A stretch of 39,146 nt of DNA from Candidatus Peribacteria bacterium (GTDB taxonomy: Bacteria; Patescibacteriota; Gracilibacteria; Peribacterales; Peribacteraceae): assembly GCA_028286915.1 (NCBI GenBank), contig JAQBQQ010000045.1, positions 1-39,146 on the forward strand, written 5' to 3'. This document shows positions 1 through 32,285 of the stretch, piece after piece (the first letter of the stretch is position 1; each line of letters begins with the position of its first letter). The notes below the pieces were generated by a model that saw only the letters and a list, made by a program, of their open reading frames with translations, made no database searches and was not told the origin of the DNA. A program made the position numbers and the translations under genes.

Positions 1-1603
1 CATCTTCCATGAGCGTAAGGCAGCCGTTTCTGAAATAATCCTGAATACGCGGGCCGAAAATTTCTTCGCCAAACATTTTCACCATCATGTTCATGGCGTC
101 CAGCGCAATTAAATCTCTCTCTTCCGGCGTTTTGCCTTCCAGCAGGTTCAGTCCCAGCGGTCGTTCGGTATCTGCCGGGTTGAAGTAAATAACGTCATCG
201 GCCCGGGAGCGGGGGATGTACGGCATGACATCTTCTATAAGCGAGCCGTGCGGATCGACAATGCAGACGCCTTTGCCATTGGCAAAATCCTGCCGGGCCA
301 TCAGCTGGATAATGGAAGATTTCCCCGTACCTGTTTGTCCGATAATATAAAAGTGGCGGAACCGGTCTTCCTGCTTCATGAAGATTTTCTGCTTCTCGCC
401 GCGGTACGTGTTCTGTCCCAGGAACAGTCCTTCTTCCGGAATACTTTTTGGCGCCGGTGCCACTTTAAAGTTCTGCCATTTAATAGATTCCACTTTGTTA
501 TATTTGATGTTCGGCAAATGGAAAAAGCTGGCCAGTTCCATTGTGCCAAGCAGCATCTTGGGCGTGCGCAGCGCCTGATACACCGTTCTGCGCGGGCTGC
601 GGCGGATGAACTGCTCCACAACTTTGTCCTGCTGACGGAAGGGCGGACTTGTAAATGAGTTTCCCCGTACATCTCCAAACTGGCTGAAGGCAGCTTTAAT
701 ACCATCCAGAAGGTTTTGCGCCCGGCTTTGGCTGGCAGCCGATGTAAGCAGGCGAACGGTGCAGGTAAAACCCGGGTTCGACGCTTTTTCATCCACGCCC
801 TTGCTGTACTCTTCAATCATCTGCGATACGCGCTCGCCCGTTGCCTCCTGGGATTGGGCCTTAATGGCATCGTCCGGCGAGGTGAGTAAATCAAACATCG
901 ATGAAAGCCAGGTAACCGGATTCATGAGGCTTGCCTTCTTCTTTTTGGGGTTCAGTAGATTTTTGGCCTCTTTCTGCAGCTTCTCCTGCCAGCCGGATTT
1001 GGCCGGGCGCAGAATAAATTGCACGGCGGCGCCTTCATCCACTTTTAATTTGGAAAAGGCATTGGTAATGGAATTAAGCGGATCGCTTTTTAGTTGCTGA
1101 TACGTTTTGAAAACGGATGTGAACGGCTTTTGCGGAACCAATGCCGTTGCCTCTACGACCGAATCGCTGGTAAAAATATTGTAGTCTTCCACTTCATCGA
1201 TAATGACATCCGGATAAAACGATGTCAGTTGTTTCTCCATGAGGTGAGCGATTTTGCGCGGGCAGACGACAAACAGCAGAATTTCTCCGGCCAGCGCCGC
1301 GTATTCCACGGAAAAGAATGTCTGGCCGTGTAATCTGCTGGCGAAGCTGCCGCTGTACAAGCTATGCAGCGATTGATACATGTGATCCATTACGCCAAGA
1401 ACCTCGCGGAAATCATTACCGGAGAATTGTTCGGATTGCACTTCCTTATCCTCTTTGCTTTCTTTTTTGGGTACCAGAATTTGCAAAAAAACCAAGTCGC
1501 GTTCGCGTTTAAAATCGGCCTGGAGACGGCTCCATGCAAAAAAGCCAAGAACTCCCGCATACAGGAGGATAAGCACGCCAATGCTGATGAGAATAGTCAT
1601 CAT
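1..1603 (-). CDS. T4SS-like membrane-anchored ATPase (VirD4/TraC-type), 3' end beyond window
   Basis: The gene runs off the left edge; 534 residues are visible. It opens with one membrane segment (residues 3-22) followed by a charged cytoplasmic region. The P-loop IIGQTGTGKSS lies near residues 420-431, followed by VCIVDPHGSLIEDV and the conserved EEIFGPRIQDYFRNGCLTLM. The same layout occurs in the 869-aa protein at 29676-32285 (FGPRIQHYFRNGCLTLMDD), so the two are clear paralogs. This family (type IV secretion DNA-binding/DUF87-like ATPases) powers DNA or protein export or pilus assembly at the inner membrane; the substrate is not shown. ATG 1603 is chosen over ATG 1600 because it lies 14 nt after an extended -10 box; there is no Shine-Dalgarno. 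Family confidence is high, exact role unknown. Confidence 0.88.
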   Translation of the reverse strand, partial: MMTILISIGVLILLYAGVLGFFAWSRLQADFKRERDLVFLQILVPKKESKEDKEVQSEQFSGNDFREVLGVMDHMYQSLHSLYSGSFASRLHGQTFFSVEYAALAGEILLFVVCPRKIAHLMEKQLTSFYPDVIIDEVEDYNIFTSDSVVEATALVPQKPFTSVFKTYQQLKSDPLNSITNAFSKLKVDEGAAVQFILRPAKSGWQEKLQKEAKNLLNPKKKKASLMNPVTWLSSMFDLLTSPDDAIKAQSQEATGERVSQMIEEYSKGVDEKASNPGFTCTVRLLTSAASQSRAQNLLDGIKAAFSQFGDVRGNSFTSPPFRQQDKVVEQFIRRSPRRTVYQALRTPKMLLGTMELASFFHLPNIKYNKVESIKWQNFKVAPAPKSIPEEGLFLGQNTYRGEKQKIFMKQEDRFRHFYIIGQTGTGKSSIIQLMARQDFANGKGVCIVDPHGSLIEDVMPYIPRSRADDVIYFNPADTERPLGLNLLEGKTPEERDLIALDAMNMMVKMFGEEIFGPRIQDYFRNGCLTLMED

Positions 1604-3181: not shown

Positions 3182-4642
3182 ATGACACACACACGCATAT
3201 GGCCGGTGGTGGCAACGACAACCGCATTCCTGGGGATTGTGGTCATGTTGTCTGTGGATGGCGCCGCCGTGCGGGCCCAGTCCAATGACTGTATTGGTAA
3301 GCCGTACGGCTACCCGGGCTGCCCCATGCTGGAGCAGAGTGCCGTTTCTTCTTCCGCGGTACCTGCGCATTGCGGTGACGGCGTGCTGCAGAAAGATGAA
3401 GGCGAGACGTGTGACGAGGGACGAATGAACGGCCAGGGAGCCTGTACCAGCAGCTGCGTGCTGCTCTATTGTGGTGACGGAAAAATCTCGGTCCAGGCCG
3501 GAGAAGAATGCGAGCCGAAAGTGGAGCAGGTATACGCGCAGGATCCGCAGACAGGCGAGATGAAAGTACAGAAACGTTTTGTAGCCCAGAGCTGCGGAAC
3601 ATATTGCACGGCTCCGGCATATGATGCGCAGGGGAAAACAAGCGGCGGTTGTCGTAAGAATTTCCAGGCGGCCTGTACGGTTTCATCCGTTTCATCGTCA
3701 ACGGGTTCTGCCAAACCTGCAGCCGGTTCATCTGTCTCAAGTGCGTCTGCAGGCTCTGTGTCATCCGTTGCAGCTGTATCATCGCCTGCTTCTTCTGCTT
3801 CTTCGCAGTCTTCTGCGCCGATAGTTCTCAGCAGCCTGGCATCTTCGTCATTGCCGGTTATTCCCGCAGCCGCTTGCGGCGATGGTATACGTCAGTCTCC
3901 GGAGGAATGTGACGATGGTAATCAGAATCCAAGTGACCTGTGCTCCAATACATGCCGTTTGCCGGCGTGCGGCGATGGCATCAGACAGGCAAATGAAGAA
4001 TGCGACGACGGTAATCGTAGCAACGCCGATGCGTGTTCCAATGTGTGCACCGTCTTACGTTGCGGCGATGGCATAGTGAATGCCGGCGAAGAGTGCGATG
4101 ACGGCAATCAGCTGAATACAGACGCATGCTCCAATAGTTGCCGGTTCGCTCATTGTGGCGACGGGATCATCCAGGCCAATGAAGAATGTGATGACGGCAA
4201 CCATGATAATACCGATGCATGTTCCAACACATGCCATGTTCCACGTTGTGGCAATGGTATGGTTGAAGGTGCCGAGCAGTGCGATAATGGCTTGCGTAAT
4301 TCAAACATGTCAAAGAACGCCTGTCGTCTGAACTGCCGCCAGCCCGTATGCGGTGATAAAGTAATTGATTCGGGTGAAGAATGTGACGGCGGCGCCTATT
4401 GCACCGGCACCTGTACATTAACCGCGCCTGTTGCGACAGTGGCCGTTAAAACACCACCGGCAACCACCGATAAGAATTCCATTGTGCTGCAGGCCATCGT
4501 CGGCTCGCTCATTATTGTAACCGGTATACTTGGTTACCTGCTTCGTACAAAAATTCTGATTCTGCTCGGCCTCAAAAAGCCGGTGAAAGACATGGACGAT
4601 TTGCCGCTGGACCAAATAGAGGCGCCTTGGAATAAATGGTAA
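3182..4642 (+). CDS. Membrane-anchored Cys-rich repeat protein (DUF4215-type)
   Basis: The 486-aa protein has a signal peptide (about residues 1-32, hydrophobic core [11 protein letters not shown], cleavage near VRAQ). A Cys-rich head (62-165) follows, then a low-complexity Ser/Ala/Val linker (166-229), and a run of Cys-rich repeats of the form CGDGI..xEECDDGN..(D)ACSNxC starting at about 232, 263, 294 and 325, with two degenerate copies after them. One transmembrane helix (434-463) and a short acidic cytoplasmic tail end the protein. The repeats match the Myxococcus Cys-rich/DUF4215 type, thought to be extracellular disulfide-bonded modules. An adhesin or surface-stalk role is inference. A smaller Cys-rich protein occurs at 19426-20010. 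Confidence 0.82.
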
Positions 4643-20148: not shown

Positions 20149-21492
20149 CTAATCATCACTGCTTTCCATTTGATCACGCAGGACATACGTATCCAGATTT
20201 TCTTTGCCCAGCGATGCAATAATTTCCGGAATGGCTTCTTCGTATTTCATTTGTCTCTGCTTTCCGGCTCGCATGTCGCGCAGAATAATGGTTCCTTCTT
20301 TTACCTCCATTTTACCGAGCAGCAGCGTATAGCGCGCCTCAAATTTATCAGCCAGACGCATCTGGCTCTTAAGGCTGGCTTCGCCCAAGGCGCCAACGGT
20401 GTGAACGCCGAATTCTCGTAATTGTGACACCAGCGCCAGACATCTCTTTTTGGCTTCCGGCCCAAGTTGCGCTACGAAGACATCAACATGATCCTTATTT
20501 GGTGCTTTCACCCCGGCTTCTTTCATGTGCCATATCATGCGCTCCAGCCCGCCGGCAAAACCGACGCCAGGTGTAGGCTTACCGCCAAGTTGCTCTATAA
20601 GGCCATCGTACCGGCCGCCGCCGCCAACTGCATTCTGCGCACCGGTCGACTGGTCCCAGAATTCAAATACAGTTTGATTATAATAATCCAGTCCGCGGAC
20701 AAGGCCGGCATTCGGCGTGTAGGCAATGCCCAATTCATCCAGGTACTCCAGTAGGGTTTCGTGGTAGTGCTTGCTTTCATCACTTAAGTATTGATCCAGT
20801 GTAGGAGCGGAACGCAGCAAAATCTGCGTGTCTTCCTCTTTGGAGTCCAGCAGGCGCAGAGGATTCGTCTGCAGGCGCTTCTGATCATCCTCGGGCAGAT
20901 TGCGTTCCTTGCCGATAAAATAATCCTTAAGAGCCTCCACATACGCCGCACGGTTTTCCGAAGAGCCGATATTATTAATCTGCAGATTCAAACGTTTGAG
21001 AATCTTTAAATCAGACATGATTTTTGTCACGACATGAATGAGCTGGGCATCCAGGCTCGGGTCCCGGAGACCGATTACTTCCAAATCGAACTGATGAAAC
21101 TGACGGTAGCGGCCTTTCTGCGGACGGTCGTAACGGAAACAAGGCCCGATGGCGTACAGCTCCACCGGCTGCGGTAACTGTTGCATGCCGTGCTCTATGT
21201 AGGATCGGCAGATACCGGCCGTAAACTCCGGACGCAGGGCAAATTGCTTTTCGGCTTCATCCGCATTGTGCTTGCCGGATACCATGAACAGTTCTTTTTC
21301 CACGATATCGGTATGCAAACCAATGCCGCGCTCAAAAATACCTTTATTTTCAAAAATAGGCGGCTCCGTACGCCTGTAACCCGCTTGTCTGGCCCGGTGA
21401 CGGACAGCTTTCTTAATATACGTCATGTACTGCTGATCCTCCGGGAGGACATCGTGTGTGCCTTTTGGTGTGCGGAATTGCAAATCTGCCAT
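20149..21492 (-). CDS. hisS: Histidyl-tRNA synthetase
   Basis: The 447-aa class II synthetase attaches histidine to tRNA-His, whose gene lies 0.8 kb away on the same strand. It begins with FRTPKGTHDVLPED. Motif 2 contains FRYDRPQKGRYRQFHQFDLE, the histidine-A motif is GLVRGLDYYNQTVFEF and motif 3 is GVGFAGGLERMIWHM. A C-terminal anticodon-binding domain (DVFVAQLGPEAKKR...LRDMRAGKQ) completes it. The length is typical. No Shine-Dalgarno is seen; CATACT ends a few nt before ATG 21492. Confidence 0.96.
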   Translation of the reverse strand: MADLQFRTPKGTHDVLPEDQQYMTYIKKAVRHRARQAGYRRTEPPIFENKGIFERGIGLHTDIVEKELFMVSGKHNADEAEKQFALRPEFTAGICRSYIEHGMQQLPQPVELYAIGPCFRYDRPQKGRYRQFHQFDLEVIGLRDPSLDAQLIHVVTKIMSDLKILKRLNLQINNIGSSENRAAYVEALKDYFIGKERNLPEDDQKRLQTNPLRLLDSKEEDTQILLRSAPTLDQYLSDESKHYHETLLEYLDELGIAYTPNAGLVRGLDYYNQTVFEFWDQSTGAQNAVGGGGRYDGLIEQLGGKPTPGVGFAGGLERMIWHMKEAGVKAPNKDHVDVFVAQLGPEAKKRCLALVSQLREFGVHTVGALGEASLKSQMRLADKFEARYTLLLGKMEVKEGTIILRDMRAGKQRQMKYEEAIPEIIASLGKENLDTYVLRDQMESSDD

Positions 21493-22476: not shown

Positions 22477-25371
22477 TTAACTCCCCGATGACGGCTGATT
22501 GTCACCCGGCGCAGGCTTCTCACTTGGCGTGGTAATGCTGTCAGCGCTAATGACGAAGGCAATATCGTTATCAGACCTGTTTTCACCTGGCGCAGGGCTT
22601 TTGGACTGCTGCTCCGGAGCCGGTGGTATAACTTCCGTATGGCCATTGGTTTCCGGCGGAATGTCCGGTTGCGTATCCTGTTCCATCTGCATTTCCTGCT
22701 CCATTTCCTGGCTGATGACAGGATTATGAATGGGGATTGCGGTTAACGGCGGCTCACCTGGCGCCTGTACTTCCACGGGTTGGGTATCTGGCTGGCTGGC
22801 TGGTACCAAAGGTGCCGGCGTCGGTAATTCTACGGCAGGTACAGTTTCTGTTATGGGCGTTGCAGGCTCAGGTGGCACGGTTGGCATTGGTACCGGAGCA
22901 GTTGGCTTGGTTACAGGTGGCTCCTGGCTGCGTGCAGGTTGTGCCGGTAGTGAATCCGTTGCGGCAGCCGGAGCAGGTGCCGGTTTGGCTTGCTCTTTTT
23001 CCTGTCGCAGGCGCAGGTTATCGCGGTAGCGTTGCCGCTTGCGGCGCTTGCGCTCACGTTCACGTTCAGCTTGTTCATCACTTGCCGTTGTCGCCTGGGG
23101 CCGTGAGCCAGGTGTTATTGCCGGTGTTTCCGGTGTGGCGGCTGGCTTATCGGTAGAAACCTGCGGGACGGCAGGAGAAGAAGATGGTTCGAGTAATGGC
23201 TCATTTATATCGTCATCGCTGGTGTCATCGGTATTGTCATCAGCTTCGCCAGACTCCGGACTAAAAGTGGCGACAGGTGTAGCGGATGCCGGCTGTGGTG
23301 GCGCCGCCTGTTCCGCATCATAGATAGAAAGAGGAGCAGGGGATTCGGTAACGGGTGCAGGTTCTGCTACGGCGGGAGTGGACGCAATGGTATCGCTCAC
23401 ATTGGTATCGGCCCAGGGAGGCGGCGGTAGAACAGTTGTATGTTGCTCCAGTCCTTCGCGTAACCATGCGGGAGCACTGGTTGCTTCTGCAGACGGTTCG
23501 GCAGGAGGCATGGCTGCTTCATTTTCTGCCGCAGGTGCAGGAGCTGGTTCCGTAACTACGGGTTCTGGCTCCTTGGCCACGGGCGGTGGCGCAAGCTCCG
23601 GTTCCGGAACGGGTTCCGGCTCCGGCACAGAAGGAGTTGTTTGCGCTTTCTGGAGGCCGCTTTTTAGCCAGGCAGGAGCCTTGTCGGCATCAATGGCAGG
23701 TTCCGGTGGCGGAGCAGGAGCTGGTTCGGGCTCCGGTTTTGTTTCAGGCTCACGAGCCGGCTCCGGGCTGCTATTTTCTTGTACCGGTTCTTCGGTACGT
23801 CGTAATGTGAGCGGCGGCGGTTCCATGTCTATGACTTCTTGCGGACTTTTCTCTCCCTTTTCACGTTTCATAACGCGCGTTTCCATATCTTCCAGTTTCT
23901 GGCTGAGCCCGCCGCGCTTTTGCAAAAGGCGCATAATGGCCCAGAGCAGAATGCCGAACGTCAGCACGACGCCCGCAATAATCAACAGAACTTTAACAAC
24001 CAGCCAGATGACACCGCCGGCACTTCCGGCAGATGCGGCTGCAGAAGAAGCGGCGGAGCTGCCGGTTGTTCCGGCCACGGCGCCACTGCCGGTCGTGCCG
24101 GATACCTGTACGATTGTTTCCATGGTTTTGATGACGCGCCCGCTAAGCAGGCTGCGTATTTCGGCATGCACAGTGTATGTTCCGTTTGCGGCATACTGGT
24201 GGTCCGGTTCACTCAGCATACTTTGTGCGCCGTCGCCAAAAGACCATTGCGTAATGGTGGGGTTGCCCTGTTCCGGCACGTTGCCCGGGATGGAAAAATG
24301 GACGATGCCGTTTTGCTGTGTAGCGGCCACAATACCTGTTGGCGATGGAGCGGTTGCGTCGGCATTGGTAACAAAAATTTTCTGCTCGATAGGTGTGCCT
24401 GTATCCGTAGTACTAAATACATTGAGCGCGTTTCCTGCTGCAGCTGCTTCACCTGCCGCGTTGCCGAACCAGAGAAAGAGGGGACTTTTATCGGTGTGAA
24501 AAAGCGTCTGGGCGGTATCGGCGTCATGCAGGGGGTCACCATCGCCATTTGTATCACGCGTGGCATCGGTGTCTATATCCAGCGGCGGGCCGTTTTGCGT
24601 TACCGGTATAATGCGCAGCAGATGTGTCGTGGCTGGGAGGTTCACTTCTTGTCCGTTTAAGGGCGGCTCCGTGGAAACCAGCATGTGTGTAGCGACGGGT
24701 GCTGTATCCAGTGGCGATGGCAACGGCTGGGTGCCGCTCGTAACTTGTATGGTGATAACGGTGCTTGCGCGCTTGCCCTGAACGGTATCCAAAATATCGC
24801 CATGTAATACATACAAACCCGGCTGCAGAAAGCGTGTGTGGAAAAATGGCTCGCGATGCGCTTCTATAAACGTATTATTCTGGGTCAAAACCCATGAATA
24901 GGTTGGGGCAGTGAATTGCGTGACGGCGAGTATTTCAAATACTTCCCCTGTCTGTACTGAAATCGAGTTGTCCTGCAGGGTTTCTGCGGATGCCGAAGAG
25001 GAAGGGAATCCGAATGTGCCGGAAGCGCCAAAGTTATCACTGGACGACGCGAAGGTGTTACTGGACGCTGCGAAAGTTGAACTGGACGGTGCGAAAGTAT
25101 CACTGGACGGTGCGAAAGTATCACTGGACGGTGCAAAAGTATCACTGGACGGTGCAAAAGTATCACTGGACAGTGCAAAGGCTGAGCTGGATGAGTTGGA
25201 TACGAATGAATCATTGCCCGTAAATGTCTGGCTGCCAAACCCGAAGGAACTGGAACCCAAAACAATCGGCAGGCTCTGGGCGGCAATGGGGAACGGCAGG
25301 CTGCATACCATTGCCACAAATGCGATTGTGCGCAGTGAGAGTGTGACCAGTGAGAATTGCCTCTTAAGCAT
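22477..25371 (-). CDS. Large PKD-domain single-pass surface protein with Pro/Glu-rich cytoplasmic tail
   Basis: The 964-aa protein has a signal peptide (1-32), then eight degenerate 7-residue repeats of the FAPSSDT type (about 65-120). Next come a beta domain (133-212), an acidic Asp-rich loop that could bind calcium (265-287; DTNGDGDPLHDAD) and a PKD domain (about 340-422; WSFGDG...HQYAANGTYTVHAEI). A Ser/Ala/Gly hinge, one transmembrane helix (453-480) and a cytoplasmic tail of about 480 residues rich in Pro, Glu and Ala follow. The tail carries two copies of APAWL(K/R)xGLx (565-574 and 633-642), probably a docking motif. Its ATG lies 6 nt after the stop of the VirB2-like pilin gene, so the two form an operon. 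A membrane-spanning partner of a secretion or pilus machine is inferred. Confidence 0.85.
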   Translation of the reverse strand: MLKRQFSLVTLSLRTIAFVAMVCSLPFPIAAQSLPIVLGSSSFGFGSQTFTGNDSFVSNSSSSAFALSSDTFAPSSDTFAPSSDTFAPSSDTFAPSSSTFAASSNTFASSSDNFGASGTFGFPSSSASAETLQDNSISVQTGEVFEILAVTQFTAPTYSWVLTQNNTFIEAHREPFFHTRFLQPGLYVLHGDILDTVQGKRASTVITIQVTSGTQPLPSPLDTAPVATHMLVSTEPPLNGQEVNLPATTHLLRIIPVTQNGPPLDIDTDATRDTNGDGDPLHDADTAQTLFHTDKSPLFLWFGNAAGEAAAAGNALNVFSTTDTGTPIEQKIFVTNADATAPSPTGIVAATQQNGIVHFSIPGNVPEQGNPTITQWSFGDGAQSMLSEPDHQYAANGTYTVHAEIRSLLSGRVIKTMETIVQVSGTTGSGAVAGTTGSSAASSAAASAGSAGGVIWLVVKVLLIIAGVVLTFGILLWAIMRLLQKRGGLSQKLEDMETRVMKREKGEKSPQEVIDMEPPPLTLRRTEEPVQENSSPEPAREPETKPEPEPAPAPPPEPAIDADKAPAWLKSGLQKAQTTPSVPEPEPVPEPELAPPPVAKEPEPVVTEPAPAPAAENEAAMPPAEPSAEATSAPAWLREGLEQHTTVLPPPPWADTNVSDTIASTPAVAEPAPVTESPAPLSIYDAEQAAPPQPASATPVATFSPESGEADDNTDDTSDDDINEPLLEPSSSPAVPQVSTDKPAATPETPAITPGSRPQATTASDEQAERERERKRRKRQRYRDNLRLRQEKEQAKPAPAPAAATDSLPAQPARSQEPPVTKPTAPVPMPTVPPEPATPITETVPAVELPTPAPLVPASQPDTQPVEVQAPGEPPLTAIPIHNPVISQEMEQEMQMEQDTQPDIPPETNGHTEVIPPAPEQQSKSPAPGENRSDNDIAFVISADSITTPSEKPAPGDNQPSSGS
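25012..25179 (-). repeat. 21-bp tandem repeat coding for heptapeptides
   Basis: Eight in-frame units of 21 bp encode FALSSDT, FAPSSDT (three times), FAPSSST, FAASSNT, FASSSDN and FGASGTF. The four central units are nearly identical at the DNA level, so copy number probably varies. Confidence 0.9.
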
Positions 25372-25377
25372 AGTAGG

Positions 25378-25743
25378 TTAGTTTAGTATATTTACCGCAA
25401 ATCCCACAATCACTCGGGACAGTAAAATTAATATGAGTCCCACAATAGTATAAATAACAATATTCTTGGCTTTTGTCTGTGAGTCGTCGCTGCCCTGGCC
25501 CACGATAAGGTAGATACCGGCAATAATAATCATAATGACGGCAATGAAGCCCATTAAGTCCAGTACGGTTGATAAAATGCGGCTAATTACCGCGCGGAGA
25601 TCTCCCTGGAACAGTTGTCCGAACTTTCCGCGAATGGCATTCAGCCCGCATGTAAGTCCGCAGCCGTTAAATGTCTGTGCATGAGCCACTCCCGGCAGGA
25701 ATACTATCAGGCTTAGCCAGATTGGACGTAAACGGAAATTCAT
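25378..25743 (-). CDS. VirB2/TrbC-like pilin
   Basis: The 121-aa protein has a signal peptide (MNFRLRPIWLSLIVFLPGVAHAQ), a short Cys/Gly-containing exposed segment (FNGCGLTCGLNAIRGKFGQ) and two transmembrane helices (about 58-82 and 94-118) around a small polar loop (VGQGSDDSQTKAKN). This is the layout of VirB2/TrbC conjugative pilins and of their relatives in Candidate Phyla Radiation genomes. It lies first in an operon with the 964-aa PKD protein. With the two VirD4/VirB4-like ATPases in this window it suggests a reduced type IV secretion or pilus apparatus. The expected VirB3/6/8/9/10 genes are not seen here. Confidence 0.75.
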   Translation of the reverse strand: MNFRLRPIWLSLIVFLPGVAHAQTFNGCGLTCGLNAIRGKFGQLFQGDLRAVISRILSTVLDLMGFIAVIMIIIAGIYLIVGQGSDDSQTKAKNIVIYTIVGLILILLSRVIVGFAVNILN

Positions 25744-25870: not shown

Positions 25871-26866
25871 ATGCACCCCAAAAATGCCAAAGAGTTACTA
25901 AGAGCAGCCAGCGTTCCGGCACTGCTGGTCACCCATCCGGTTCACTTGCGCTACCTGCTGGCATCTCCTGTGGAACATGCATATCTGTTCATTACACCCG
26001 GTGGTTATGATCTTTTTACGAATCTTGTTTTTCTGAACGACCGGACAGCGTTGGAAAAAAGAGGTGTTCATGTGCATGCGACGGCAGATTTTGCCGGCTT
26101 TGTAAAAGATATACCGGTCTGCGGATTTGAATCGGCGTACATGCCGGTACAGGAGCATGCGGCGCTAAAGAAAAAATACAAGCGCATGAAATTTGTTCCT
26201 GTCGTCAATGTGGTGGAAGAATTCCGGCGGACAAAAACAGCAACTGAAATACGGTATATGAAACGGGCACGCCGTATGACCGCAGAAATACTTCGTCGCG
26301 TGCCATCGCAGTTGCGTACATCGGTGACAGAAAAAAAACTGGCGAATCAATTGCACGTCTGGGCGTTGGAATTGGGCGCGGATGGTTTATCTTTCGATCC
26401 TATTGTGGCATTCGGAACGCACACCGGTTTTCCTCACCACATACCGTCAGCGCGGAAATTGCAGCGGGGTCACATAGTGCAGATTGATGTGGGCGCCACT
26501 TATAAAGGATACTGCTCGGATGCCAGCGACGTATTTTTTACGGCACCTCCTTTCGCGCGGGAGCGCCTGGTATATGCAACATTGCGTCGTGCCAAAAATG
26601 CGGCCATTCTTGCCGCGAAAGCAGGAGTAACCAATCATGAGCTGGATGAGCTGGCACGCCGGGTACTACGTGAACAGCATCTGGAAGATGCATTTTGCCA
26701 TGCGCTCGGCCATGGCGTGGGCTTGGATATTCATGAAGGTGTCATTATTTCCTCCAAAGCTCCCGAGAAAAAATTGTTGCGCAACGAAGTAATTGCCATA
26801 GAACCCGGCGTCTATTTTCCAGGAAAGTTTGGTATGAGAGTGGAGGAGACGATTATTGTGGTCTGA
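25871..26866 (+). CDS. M24-family Xaa-Pro aminopeptidase
   Basis: The 331-aa protein has the creatinase N-terminal-like domain (about 1-120) and a pita-bread catalytic domain. The metal ligands can be placed: Asp in VQIDVG, Asp in CSDASDVFF, His in HALGHGVGLDIHE, Glu in AIEPGVYF and Glu in RVEETI. The substrate-pocket histidine segment FPHHIPSARKL is also present. Such enzymes remove N-terminal residues before proline from peptides in the cytoplasm. It is shorter than many PepP/PepQ proteins. TGGTATTCT at 25823-25831 may be its promoter; no Shine-Dalgarno is seen. Dipeptidase (PepQ-type) specificity cannot be excluded. Confidence 0.88.
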   Translation: MHPKNAKELLRAASVPALLVTHPVHLRYLLASPVEHAYLFITPGGYDLFTNLVFLNDRTALEKRGVHVHATADFAGFVKDIPVCGFESAYMPVQEHAALKKKYKRMKFVPVVNVVEEFRRTKTATEIRYMKRARRMTAEILRRVPSQLRTSVTEKKLANQLHVWALELGADGLSFDPIVAFGTHTGFPHHIPSARKLQRGHIVQIDVGATYKGYCSDASDVFFTAPPFARERLVYATLRRAKNAAILAAKAGVTNHELDELARRVLREQHLEDAFCHALGHGVGLDIHEGVIISSKAPEKKLLRNEVIAIEPGVYFPGKFGMRVEETIIVV

Positions 26867-29675: not shown

Positions 29676-32285
29676 GTGCTTACTCTTATCCCTTTTCTCA
29701 TCTGGCCCTTTCTCGCACTTGTCGTTACGGCAGTTGGCTGGGTATTTCATGTGGATACCTGGGGCGCGCTGTGGCAGGTGGTTCAGTCCCATCCGCTGGA
29801 GTCTGTTATTGGCATTATTGCCGCCTACGCATTGTACAGGTTTACTATATGGCACGTACGTTTTGTATATGCTTACCTGCAATCCAAAAAGCTGGTGCAT
29901 ATGAAAGTGCTCCTGCCGCGCAGTGACAGCAAGGCGGATCAGGAGAAGCGGACGGAAAAAGATTTCAAGGAAAAAGTGGCCATTATGGAGCAGCTCTACC
30001 GCGCACTCTGGGAAGTAAAAGACCTTACATTCTGGCGACTGGTTCACTTCTGGATTTTCCGGTACGCCACCATCAGCTTTGAATTATTTGTAGAAAGCGG
30101 CGAGCTTACTTTTTACGTTATTACGCAGCCGAATCTGGTGTCCATTGTGGAAAAGCAGATTACGGCCTACTACTCCGATGCCGAGGTGCGCGTGCAGCAC
30201 ACGCCTTCCATTTGGCCCAAAGGGTATAAGCTGGTTGGTTATAATATGGTTACCAAGAAGCCGTACTGGTACCCCATTCGTTTTTACGAGCAGATGCAGG
30301 ATGATCCGCTGAATGATATTGCCAACGTACTGTCTAAAATGAGGGTGGATGAGACGGCTGCCATTCAGGTGATTATCACGCCGGTGTTCGATGATACGTG
30401 GAGCCGTAAGGTCAAGCGCATCGCCACACTCAAATTTAAGGGGAAGGAAGATCGTTTTGTCTCCCGCATTCCATTGCTCACAACCGTCATCAAGCTATTG
30501 AGCGGCTTCACCACGGGGACAGACGGCCAGACGTATGCGCCGGGCGCGCAGAGCGGCGACTCGTTTATCCGCATGATCCAGCCGGAAGAAGAGCTGTACA
30601 AGCGCATGGGTGAAAAAGCGGGCATGAGCGGCTTTCATACCACCGTCCGCATTCTGGCGGCCGGTAAAACATGGGACCGCGCACTGGATATTACCAATAA
30701 CATGCAGGTGGCGTTTAACGTGTTCAAAGATATTTACGGTAACTGGTTTTCCAACCGTCGCTTCCTGGTGGATTTCTTTCCGCTCCCTCTGAATGCGCCT
30801 ATTTTACACTGGCTGTGGCGGCATCGTTTGAACGGTTTTCTGGGAAAATCCGATCTGCTTGTGGAGCGTGAGCTGGCTGCGTTGTATCATTTTCCGGACA
30901 GCCGCTACAACAAGATTCCTATTCTGCAGTGGATCACCTATAAAGTTCTGCCGCCGCCGCCAAATGCGCCGCAGGAAGGAATCGTTCTTGGCCTTAATAA
31001 ATACCGCGCCGAGGAAACGCCCATCCACTTTCTGGATAAAGACCGCACGCGTCATCAGTACATCATTGGTAAATCCGGTGCCGGTAAATCCGCACTTCTC
31101 AGCTACCAGGCGCGGCAGGATGTGGCGGCCGGTGCAGGGCTGTGCGTGGTGGACCCGCACGGCGACTTGATTGAAGATATTCTGACGCATGTCCCGAAAG
31201 AGCGCGCCAAAGATGTCATCCTTTTTGATCCGTCCGATACGCAGCGTCCCATGGGACTCAATTTGCTTGAAGCAAAAACAGACGAGGAAAAAGATCGTGC
31301 GTCACTGGATGCCATGGAAATTTTTATCAAACTGTTTGGTAATGAAATCTTCGGTCCGCGCATTCAGCATTACTTCCGTAACGGTTGTCTTACGCTCATG
31401 GATGATGAGGACGAAGGCGCCACGCTTATTGATGTGCCGCGCCTGTTTGTGGATGAAGAATTCCAGCGTTACAAAGTGGCCAAGATTAAAAACGTAGTGG
31501 TGCGCAGCTTCTGGGAACATGAAATGGCCAAAACCGGTGCGCGCGAGAAGGAGGAAATGATCCCGTACTTCTCCGCCAAATTTGGGCCGTTTATTACGAA
31601 CAGCACCATGCGTAATATTATCGGCCAGCCCAAGAGCGCGTTTAATATCCGTGACATTATGGACAGCGGCAAAATTCTGTTTGTTAACCTGAGTAAGGGA
31701 AAAATAGGCGATGTGAACGCCCAATTGCTCGGTCTCATTTTTGTAAACAAGGTGAACATGGCGGCTCTCAGCCGCGCCGATGTTCCGCAGAGCGACCGCC
31801 GGCGCTTTTACTTATATGTGGATGAATTCCAGAACTTCGTTACCGATGCATTTGCCACTATTCTGTCCGAAGCGCGCAAGTACGAATTGGGTCTGATTAT
31901 GGCGCATCAGTACATTGGACAGCTTGTCGGAAAAACCGCCGCCTACGACCAGGCCAGCACCAAAATGCGCGATGCCGTATTCGGTAACGTGGGAACCATC
32001 ATGAGCTTTAAAATCGGCGCCGAGGATGCCGAGTACATGGCAAAAGAATTCGCGCCGGTATTGTCCGAACAGGACGTTATCGGTATCCCGAACTTCAATT
32101 GCTACACCAAGCTGAATATCAACAATACAACGTCCCGGCCGTTCTCCATGGCTACTATTTATGATGAAAGCCAGCGCAACGAAAAGATGTCGTCACTCAT
32201 TAAAGAATACAGCCGCATGAAATATGGAAGGAAGAAAATATTCGTTGATCAGGAGATTGAGGATAGAATAGGTATTATCCGGTAA
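29676..32285 (+). CDS. T4SS-like membrane-anchored ATPase (VirD4/TraC-type)
   Basis: The 869-aa protein begins with two membrane segments (about 1-24 and 40-62). A large cytoplasmic region follows, then the P-loop YIIGKSGAGKSALL (about 461-474), CVVDPHGDLIEDI, and a Walker B YLYVDEFQNF (about 710) with ILSEARKYELGLIMAHQY, as in TraD/VirD4 coupling ATPases. It is the full-length paralog of the left-edge gene; both have FGPRIQ-x-YFRNGCLTLM. It would drive DNA or protein transfer, or pilus dynamics, together with the VirB2-like pilin. GTG 29676 is the first start that includes both membrane helices; no Shine-Dalgarno is seen. Confidence 0.9.
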   Translation: MLTLIPFLIWPFLALVVTAVGWVFHVDTWGALWQVVQSHPLESVIGIIAAYALYRFTIWHVRFVYAYLQSKKLVHMKVLLPRSDSKADQEKRTEKDFKEKVAIMEQLYRALWEVKDLTFWRLVHFWIFRYATISFELFVESGELTFYVITQPNLVSIVEKQITAYYSDAEVRVQHTPSIWPKGYKLVGYNMVTKKPYWYPIRFYEQMQDDPLNDIANVLSKMRVDETAAIQVIITPVFDDTWSRKVKRIATLKFKGKEDRFVSRIPLLTTVIKLLSGFTTGTDGQTYAPGAQSGDSFIRMIQPEEELYKRMGEKAGMSGFHTTVRILAAGKTWDRALDITNNMQVAFNVFKDIYGNWFSNRRFLVDFFPLPLNAPILHWLWRHRLNGFLGKSDLLVERELAALYHFPDSRYNKIPILQWITYKVLPPPPNAPQEGIVLGLNKYRAEETPIHFLDKDRTRHQYIIGKSGAGKSALLSYQARQDVAAGAGLCVVDPHGDLIEDILTHVPKERAKDVILFDPSDTQRPMGLNLLEAKTDEEKDRASLDAMEIFIKLFGNEIFGPRIQHYFRNGCLTLMDDEDEGATLIDVPRLFVDEEFQRYKVAKIKNVVVRSFWEHEMAKTGAREKEEMIPYFSAKFGPFITNSTMRNIIGQPKSAFNIRDIMDSGKILFVNLSKGKIGDVNAQLLGLIFVNKVNMAALSRADVPQSDRRRFYLYVDEFQNFVTDAFATILSEARKYELGLIMAHQYIGQLVGKTAAYDQASTKMRDAVFGNVGTIMSFKIGAEDAEYMAKEFAPVLSEQDVIGIPNFNCYTKLNINNTTSRPFSMATIYDESQRNEKMSSLIKEYSRMKYGRKKIFVDQEIEDRIGIIR

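Follow-up and report, generated by a model that had tools for sequence, protein, structure and literature searches.

A T4SS-type pilin gene is paired with a gene for a bitopic PKD protein in Peribacteraceae, a candidate surface module with a conserved tail motif

The window analyzed here is the whole of a 39,146-nt contig (JAQBQQ010000045.1, contig C31) of the 1.43-Mb genome (G000; assembly GCA_028286915.1) of a Candidatus Peribacteria bacterium of the family Peribacteraceae (f1; f-numbers denote families, G genomes and L the loci compared). A sequence-only reading of this DNA had described a VirB2-like pilin gene next to a gene for a giant 964-aa protein with heptapeptide repeats, a PKD domain, one membrane helix and a Pro-rich tail with two similar motifs. 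Both open reading frames were confirmed on the minus strand with 6 nt between them, and the PKD domain, the helix, the Pro-rich tail and the two motifs were all observed (Table 1). Scans for promoters and terminators yielded signals that were not above chance.

Table 1. Positions of the pilin-PKD gene pair, its encoded features, its flanking genes and fused pilins at related loci. Coordinates refer to the window unless a locus is named.
Feature	Residues	Position	Strand	Basis or remark
Pilin gene (121 aa, T4SS_pilin; signal peptide then alpha-hairpin)		25378..25743	-	PF18895, AF2
Pilin TM helix 1	49-81	25501..25599	-	AF2
Pilin TM helix 2	86-120	25384..25488	-	AF2
Gene for 964-aa PKD bitopic membrane protein		22477..25371	-	Downstream of pilin
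Signal peptide of PKD protein	1-31	25279..25371	-	Sequence reading
Heptapeptide repeats (SSDTFAP)		25030..25180	-	21-bp period, 7.2 copies
Ectodomain D1, PKD-like beta sandwich	136-211	24739..24966	-	SWVLTQ..TFIEA motif
Ectodomain D2, conserved acidic loop	232-336	24364..24678	-	Alignment, AF2
Ectodomain D3, PKD domain	348-403	24163..24330	-	PF18911
Transmembrane helix	454-485	23917..24012	-	AF2; K/R-rich inner flank after helix
Predicted docking motif 1, PAWLKSGL		23654..23676	-	
Predicted docking motif 2, PAWLREGL		23450..23472	-	
Basic block RERERKRRKRQRYRDNLRLRQEKEQ		22990..23067	-	In about half of orthologues
C-terminal block DNDIAFVISADSI		22531..22578	-	Family consensus DDxPIAIIxADSI
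pepP (M24 aminopeptidase)		25871..26866	+	Divergent neighbour, synteny kept
hisS		20149..21492	-	Flanking gene kept; adjoins pilin-giant operons of other classes too
Fused pilins directly 5' of PKD gene		L044:3730-5127	-	Five T4SS_pilin units
Fused pilins directly 5' of PKD gene		L031:338-1405		Three T4SS_pilin units
Fused pilins directly 5' of PKD gene		L025:528-1406		Three T4SS_pilin units
Fused pilins directly 5' of PKD gene		L026:3222-3905	-	Two T4SS_pilin units

The window pilin belongs to the T4SS_pilin family (37.5 bits against a cut-off of 26.6); its score against TrbC/VIRB2 is below the cut-off (20.8 against 27.9), which fused homologues exceed. Sequence and AF2 model (local pLDDT about 80-85 in both helices) agree on a signal peptide followed by a two-helix hairpin with a charged loop, G-x-G-(S/D)-(D/E)-x-S-K-x-K-A-K-K, and this loop is conserved in sequence itself, beyond mere hydrophobicity. 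Foldseek of the pilin against the PDB returned no significant match (best E 1.6); the Aeropyrum conjugation pilus 8dfu appeared at a non-significant E of 5.8 with a TMt of 0.59. In some Peribacteraceae species this position is occupied by two or three pilin genes in tandem, or by a single ORF that joins two, three or five pilin units. For an extruded pilus, as many as five units per ORF would be unusual, and such proteins could form a fixed membrane array.

Pilins are numerous and scattered in this genome: T4SS_pilin matches number 12 at E up to 1, 6 of them above the curated cut-off, on six contigs, and the set includes a three-gene pilin array with a TraG-type (VirB4) ATPase on contig C5. 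Among these many pilins, that of the window alone has a PKD partner, and no full-length paralogue of the PKD protein was found in its own genome. Polypilins exist away from the PKD locus too, as a 287-aa multi-hairpin pilin protein is encoded at G000:C32:16300-17591 (L014:8299-9592), with one more pilin behind it at the end of the contig.

The third ectodomain of the PKD protein matches PF18911 at 41.4 bits (cut-off 27) and PF00801 at 31.1 bits (cut-off 23.5), and a profile search of the PDB by sequence retrieved the PKD of ColH and nothing else. An AF2 model built from 14 sequences (mean pLDDT 76, pTM 0.52) shows three beta-sandwich domains, after which a disordered linker leads to a 32-residue helix and then to a short helix on the inner side. 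Most of D1 is modelled at a pLDDT of about 88-96, and the domain has invariant columns in the alignment; D2 has an acidic loop with the consensus D-x-D-x-x-x-D-x-(D/N)-G-D-G-(N/D)-P-x-(N/H)-D, which in the form DLDxxxDxDGDGNPxND looks to be of the calcium-binding type. Foldseek of the ectodomain pointed to Ig/FnIII/S-layer type proteins, with the neck of the Aureispira grappling-hook protein as the best match, at TM-scores low enough (about 0.2) to indicate the fold class only. As the side following the membrane helix is rich in K/R, the C-terminal tail is probably cytosolic by the positive-inside rule. Two details of the sequence-only reading need narrowing. The heptapeptide array is real in the window copy; among the aligned orthologues it occurs in the window species alone, and most orthologues lack it. 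By the standards of the group, 964 aa does not make a giant; the term suits the fusions of 1300-2000 aa found in sister families. The window encodes a second candidate surface protein, a Cys-rich DUF4215/myxo_disulf_rpt protein (3182-4642, plus strand) that has a single, C-terminal membrane helix and, after it, a short inner tail whose last residues are IEAPWNKW.

The tail of the PKD protein spans 472 aa, 21% of them proline. Across 30 Peribacteraceae tails, 66 of 72 tryptophans lie within P-x-W-[LM], against an expectation of 0.84 such motifs from composition-preserving shuffles of the same tails, and each tail has at least one; the expected conservation of the motif in orthologues was thus borne out. 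The 16 tails from other families behave alike (34/44 tryptophans within P-x-W-L, 0.24 expected), and the position of the motif varies, being internal in Peribacteraceae and C-terminal in f9. The two motifs noted earlier are only part of the tail, which also has a basic block (consensus RERERKRRKRQRYRxNLKKR in about half of orthologues) and a conserved C-terminal block; the latter was found in 25 of 27 complete tails and was the sole match per genome in all 12 genomes searched.

Outside the locus, the longer form PxWLxxGL is essentially confined to the PKD protein in its own genome (two of five DNA matches; three in the control). At the DNA level, P-[DE]-W-L-K gave about 55 matches in 26 genomes, compared with about 16 for the reversed control, and most off-locus PDWLK matches were rejected as motif carriers, being chance or housekeeping proteins. 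In four f9 genomes (G063, G079, G113 and G118; loci L222, L206, L202 and L205, respectively), a DHH/DHHA1 phosphoesterase (NrnA-like; Pfam was run on two) ends in (P)xVPDWLK after a long, Pro-rich tail that has a basic patch in some. Since this cytosolic enzyme also carries it, the motif looks portable and its partner need not belong to a T4SS, which suggests a more general hub.

The gene for the PKD protein is present in 38 of 59 relatives, including 33 of 35 other Peribacteraceae members, and a profile search likewise found it in nearly all Peribacteraceae genomes. In agreement with the earlier prediction that the two genes would be conserved together, each of the 30 Peribacteraceae loci inspected has a pilin gene upstream of, and on the same strand as, the PKD gene, mostly with a gap of -4 to +10 nt. 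The close named loci are from Candidatus Peribacteria/Peregrinibacteria, and at those of Ca. Peribacteria type the pilin is upstream in 13/13, at a distance of 336-405 nt in L054 and L056. Most Peribacteraceae loci share the syntenic block gyrB-hisS-[PKD-pilin]-pepP-3D/PG-RlpA-VirD4b-MltG, which also contains ctpA and prsW beside gyrB and hisS.

Partial matches to the ectodomain profile were obtained in several other families of the class. Sister-family loci consist of three genes. After the pilin comes a 1300-1730-aa fusion in which an N-terminal signal peptide and pilin hairpin are followed by many PKD domains; the third gene encodes a PKD-TM protein whose tail bears between one and four P-[DE]-W-L motifs and in f9 typically ends GPVPDWLKG. 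Such PKD-repeat proteins with an N-terminal pilin domain adjoin the PKD-TM gene in f2, f9, f11, f15 and f17, and an initial assignment of sister families as lacking the pilin was rejected, as the pilin is fused to the upstream giant ORF. Pfam recognized T4SS_pilin and PKD in two of three separate giants; the third scored 25.4 against the cut-off of 26.6. In two genomes of f22 (G211 and G135), in which TGA is read as glycine, pilin, PKD, TM and PDWLK are joined in a single polypeptide of 1828 and 2009 aa, respectively, with T4SS_pilin above cut-off as well as PKD, and a protein of G166 (f14) combines PKD, TM and five PDWLK motifs with no recognizable pilin. Because domains that are fused here are separate neighbours elsewhere, these proteins are good evidence for joint function, and they prove that pilin, PKD stalk and tail are physically linked in some species. 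Exceptions occur within the class: some members lack the motif (gene 3 of G090 has no PxWL), the pilin or the entire PKD-tail protein, which the class-wide profile did not detect in five f10 genomes.

A profile built from fused pilin domains showed that pilin hairpins start giant ORFs in other Patescibacteria classes too. Giants inspected in full (L258-L264) are 1934-4681 aa long with T4SS_pilin at the N-terminus, and usually a second pilin fusion of 550-860 aa lies before them; a frame of 14,266 codons in G374 includes masked bases and is not to be taken at face value. The inspected giants have Big_5/TIG/FnIII domains instead of PKD (Big_5/TIG in the two tested) and no PxWL, and hisS adjoins them in 3/8 loci, as in the window. 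The earlier claim that the arrangement is specific to these bacteria stands at the level of the class.

We favor, with confidence evenly balanced, a pilin/adhesin module at the cell surface in which the PKD protein, as the bitopic subunit, links the exterior to a partner in the cytosol. The Peribacteraceae pair would be the local version of an ancestral class-wide surface module, in which VirB2-like alpha-hairpin subunits may form a membrane-anchored or pilus-like outer structure. Beside it, the PKD protein would raise a stalk of three PKD/Ig-like domains outside the cell on one membrane helix, while in its long, flexible, presumably cytosolic tail the repeated P-x-W-L(-K) motifs may dock several copies of one partner. 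A bitopic stalk with a docking tail would anchor and position the surface structure for adhesion or host contact, and contact might be relayed to the cell interior. Anchoring or positioning an adhesive structure, perhaps with reporting of contact, therefore seems the most likely role.

The sequence-only reading had proposed instead that the tail motifs recruit VirD4/VirB4-like ATPases in a reduced export machine, which we regard as improbable. In its favor, the syntenic block holds a conserved VirD4-like ATPase (about 70-80% identity in the family) and the wall-lytic RlpA and MltG, and the genome has a VirB4. The window indeed encodes two VirD4/TraG-like membrane ATPases (2-1603, minus strand, and 29676-32285, plus strand) that share about 36-38% identity; the one at 29676-32285 is 68-80% identical across the family and occurs in all 30 genomes tested. 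However, VirD4-like ATPases are found in 30/30 genomes, including the five f10 genomes without a PKD-tail match to the class-wide profile, and T4SS pilins are equally universal (30/30). Since the ATPases are present with or without the PKD-tail gene, their co-occurrence, which that reading had offered as a check, is uninformative and was rejected as evidence. Synteny with VirD4b, RlpA and MltG was discarded as a sign of function as well: the entire region is syntenic, and with gyrB, hisS, ctpA and prsW in the block this amounts to general gene-order conservation. Two named loci, L061 and L062, keep only pepP to gyrB within 10 kb of the pair and have no VirD4b there. The cluster has no virB4, the genome's VirB4-type ATPase being encoded on another contig (G000:C5:13288-15210), so an export machine finds no support in the locus, and the motif on the DHH phosphoesterase likewise argues against a specific link to these ATPases.

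That same enzyme is the main argument for reading PxWL as a general targeting or scaffold motif of the class, for example of a pole or division scaffold, with the PKD protein as one client and the pilin link confined to the outside. The variable position of the motif is what a portable motif would have, but just one further client was found and PxWLxxGL keeps essentially to the PKD protein in its own genome; we hold this account to be rather unlikely. A wall or S-layer tether without a pilus, in which the hairpin proteins would join the PKD stalk in a static bridge across the envelope, would fit the fused pilins of 2-5 units, the PKD/Ig stalks typical of surface layers and an operon without a T4SS gene. 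Against it, the hairpins score above the curated cut-off for T4SS_pilin and the fused ones above that for TrbC/VIRB2, and conservation of the pilin loop extends to its sequence, which leaves a static bridge very improbable.

For the pilin/adhesin module, a bolder extension can be put forward tentatively: it may be an undescribed class-wide T4SS-pilin module of Gracilibacteria-type Patescibacteria, made up of pilin, pilin-PKD giant and bitopic PKD protein. A new portable motif, P-[DESAP]-W-L-[KQR], would connect it to a hub in the cytosol and would also recruit the DHH phosphoesterase, and the module would provide these T4SSs with their missing adhesin and with a relay between inside and outside. 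In Peribacteria and their relatives, the pair is a candidate missing link between surface attachment structures and the cell interior. A motif as short as P-x-W-L-K lends itself to direct peptide pull-downs, so the question can be tested.

Several published observations bear on the module. Ca. S. epibionticum, the sole Patescibacterium tested, requires its T4SS genes to grow as an epibiont, according to work cited in PMC12102498, and in archaeal parasites from this phylum the highly expressed genes include those for T4SS pilins and for a PKD protein (PMC10936435). A phylum-wide survey of Patescibacteria T4SSs, which examined genes near virB4 and so a setting other than that of the window pair, reported VirB2-like pilins and pilin arrays and found no PrgB-like adhesins (Quinonero-Coronel et al., 2025; PMC12102498). 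PKD proteins, fusions of pilins to surface domains and a PxWL tail go unmentioned in it, in line with the earlier statement that no standard T4SS has such a component. The module appears to be new relative to the literature considered, which held no preprints and few subscription papers.

The systems of that survey share with ours the pilin family (PF18895/PF04956), the phylum, tandem pilins and a VirB4-type ATPase in the genome, whereas the PKD protein, the pilin-PKD fusions and the PxWL tail are described only here. Giant membrane surface proteins of Vampirococcus, thought to hold prey, also include PKD domains and come from a related lineage, but pilin fusion and tail motif are not described there (PMC8080830). 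Like PrgB-type adhesins of Gram-positive conjugation, the PKD protein is a large surface protein next to a T4SS component and might contact a partner cell; unlike them, it has PKD/Ig domains, a membrane helix and a probably intracellular tail, with no LPxTG motif in its sequence and no PAD (polymer-adhesin domain) match in Pfam. The VirB10-like relay of Gram-positive systems is listed as unidentified in a 2025 review (PMC12857230), and the conserved pair could supply both this relay and the missing adhesin. VirB10, the energy and signal relay of diderm T4SSs, is likewise bitopic, has a Pro-rich part, reaches from cytosol to exterior and stands beside a VirB2 pilin. The PKD protein has the opposite orientation (signal peptide, large N-terminal ectodomain and a probably cytosolic C-terminal tail) and no sequence or domain match to VirB10, including VirB10/TrbI families in Pfam and NCBIfam. 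By analogy, the module would work like an adhesin plus a VirB10-type relay, yet it is neither.
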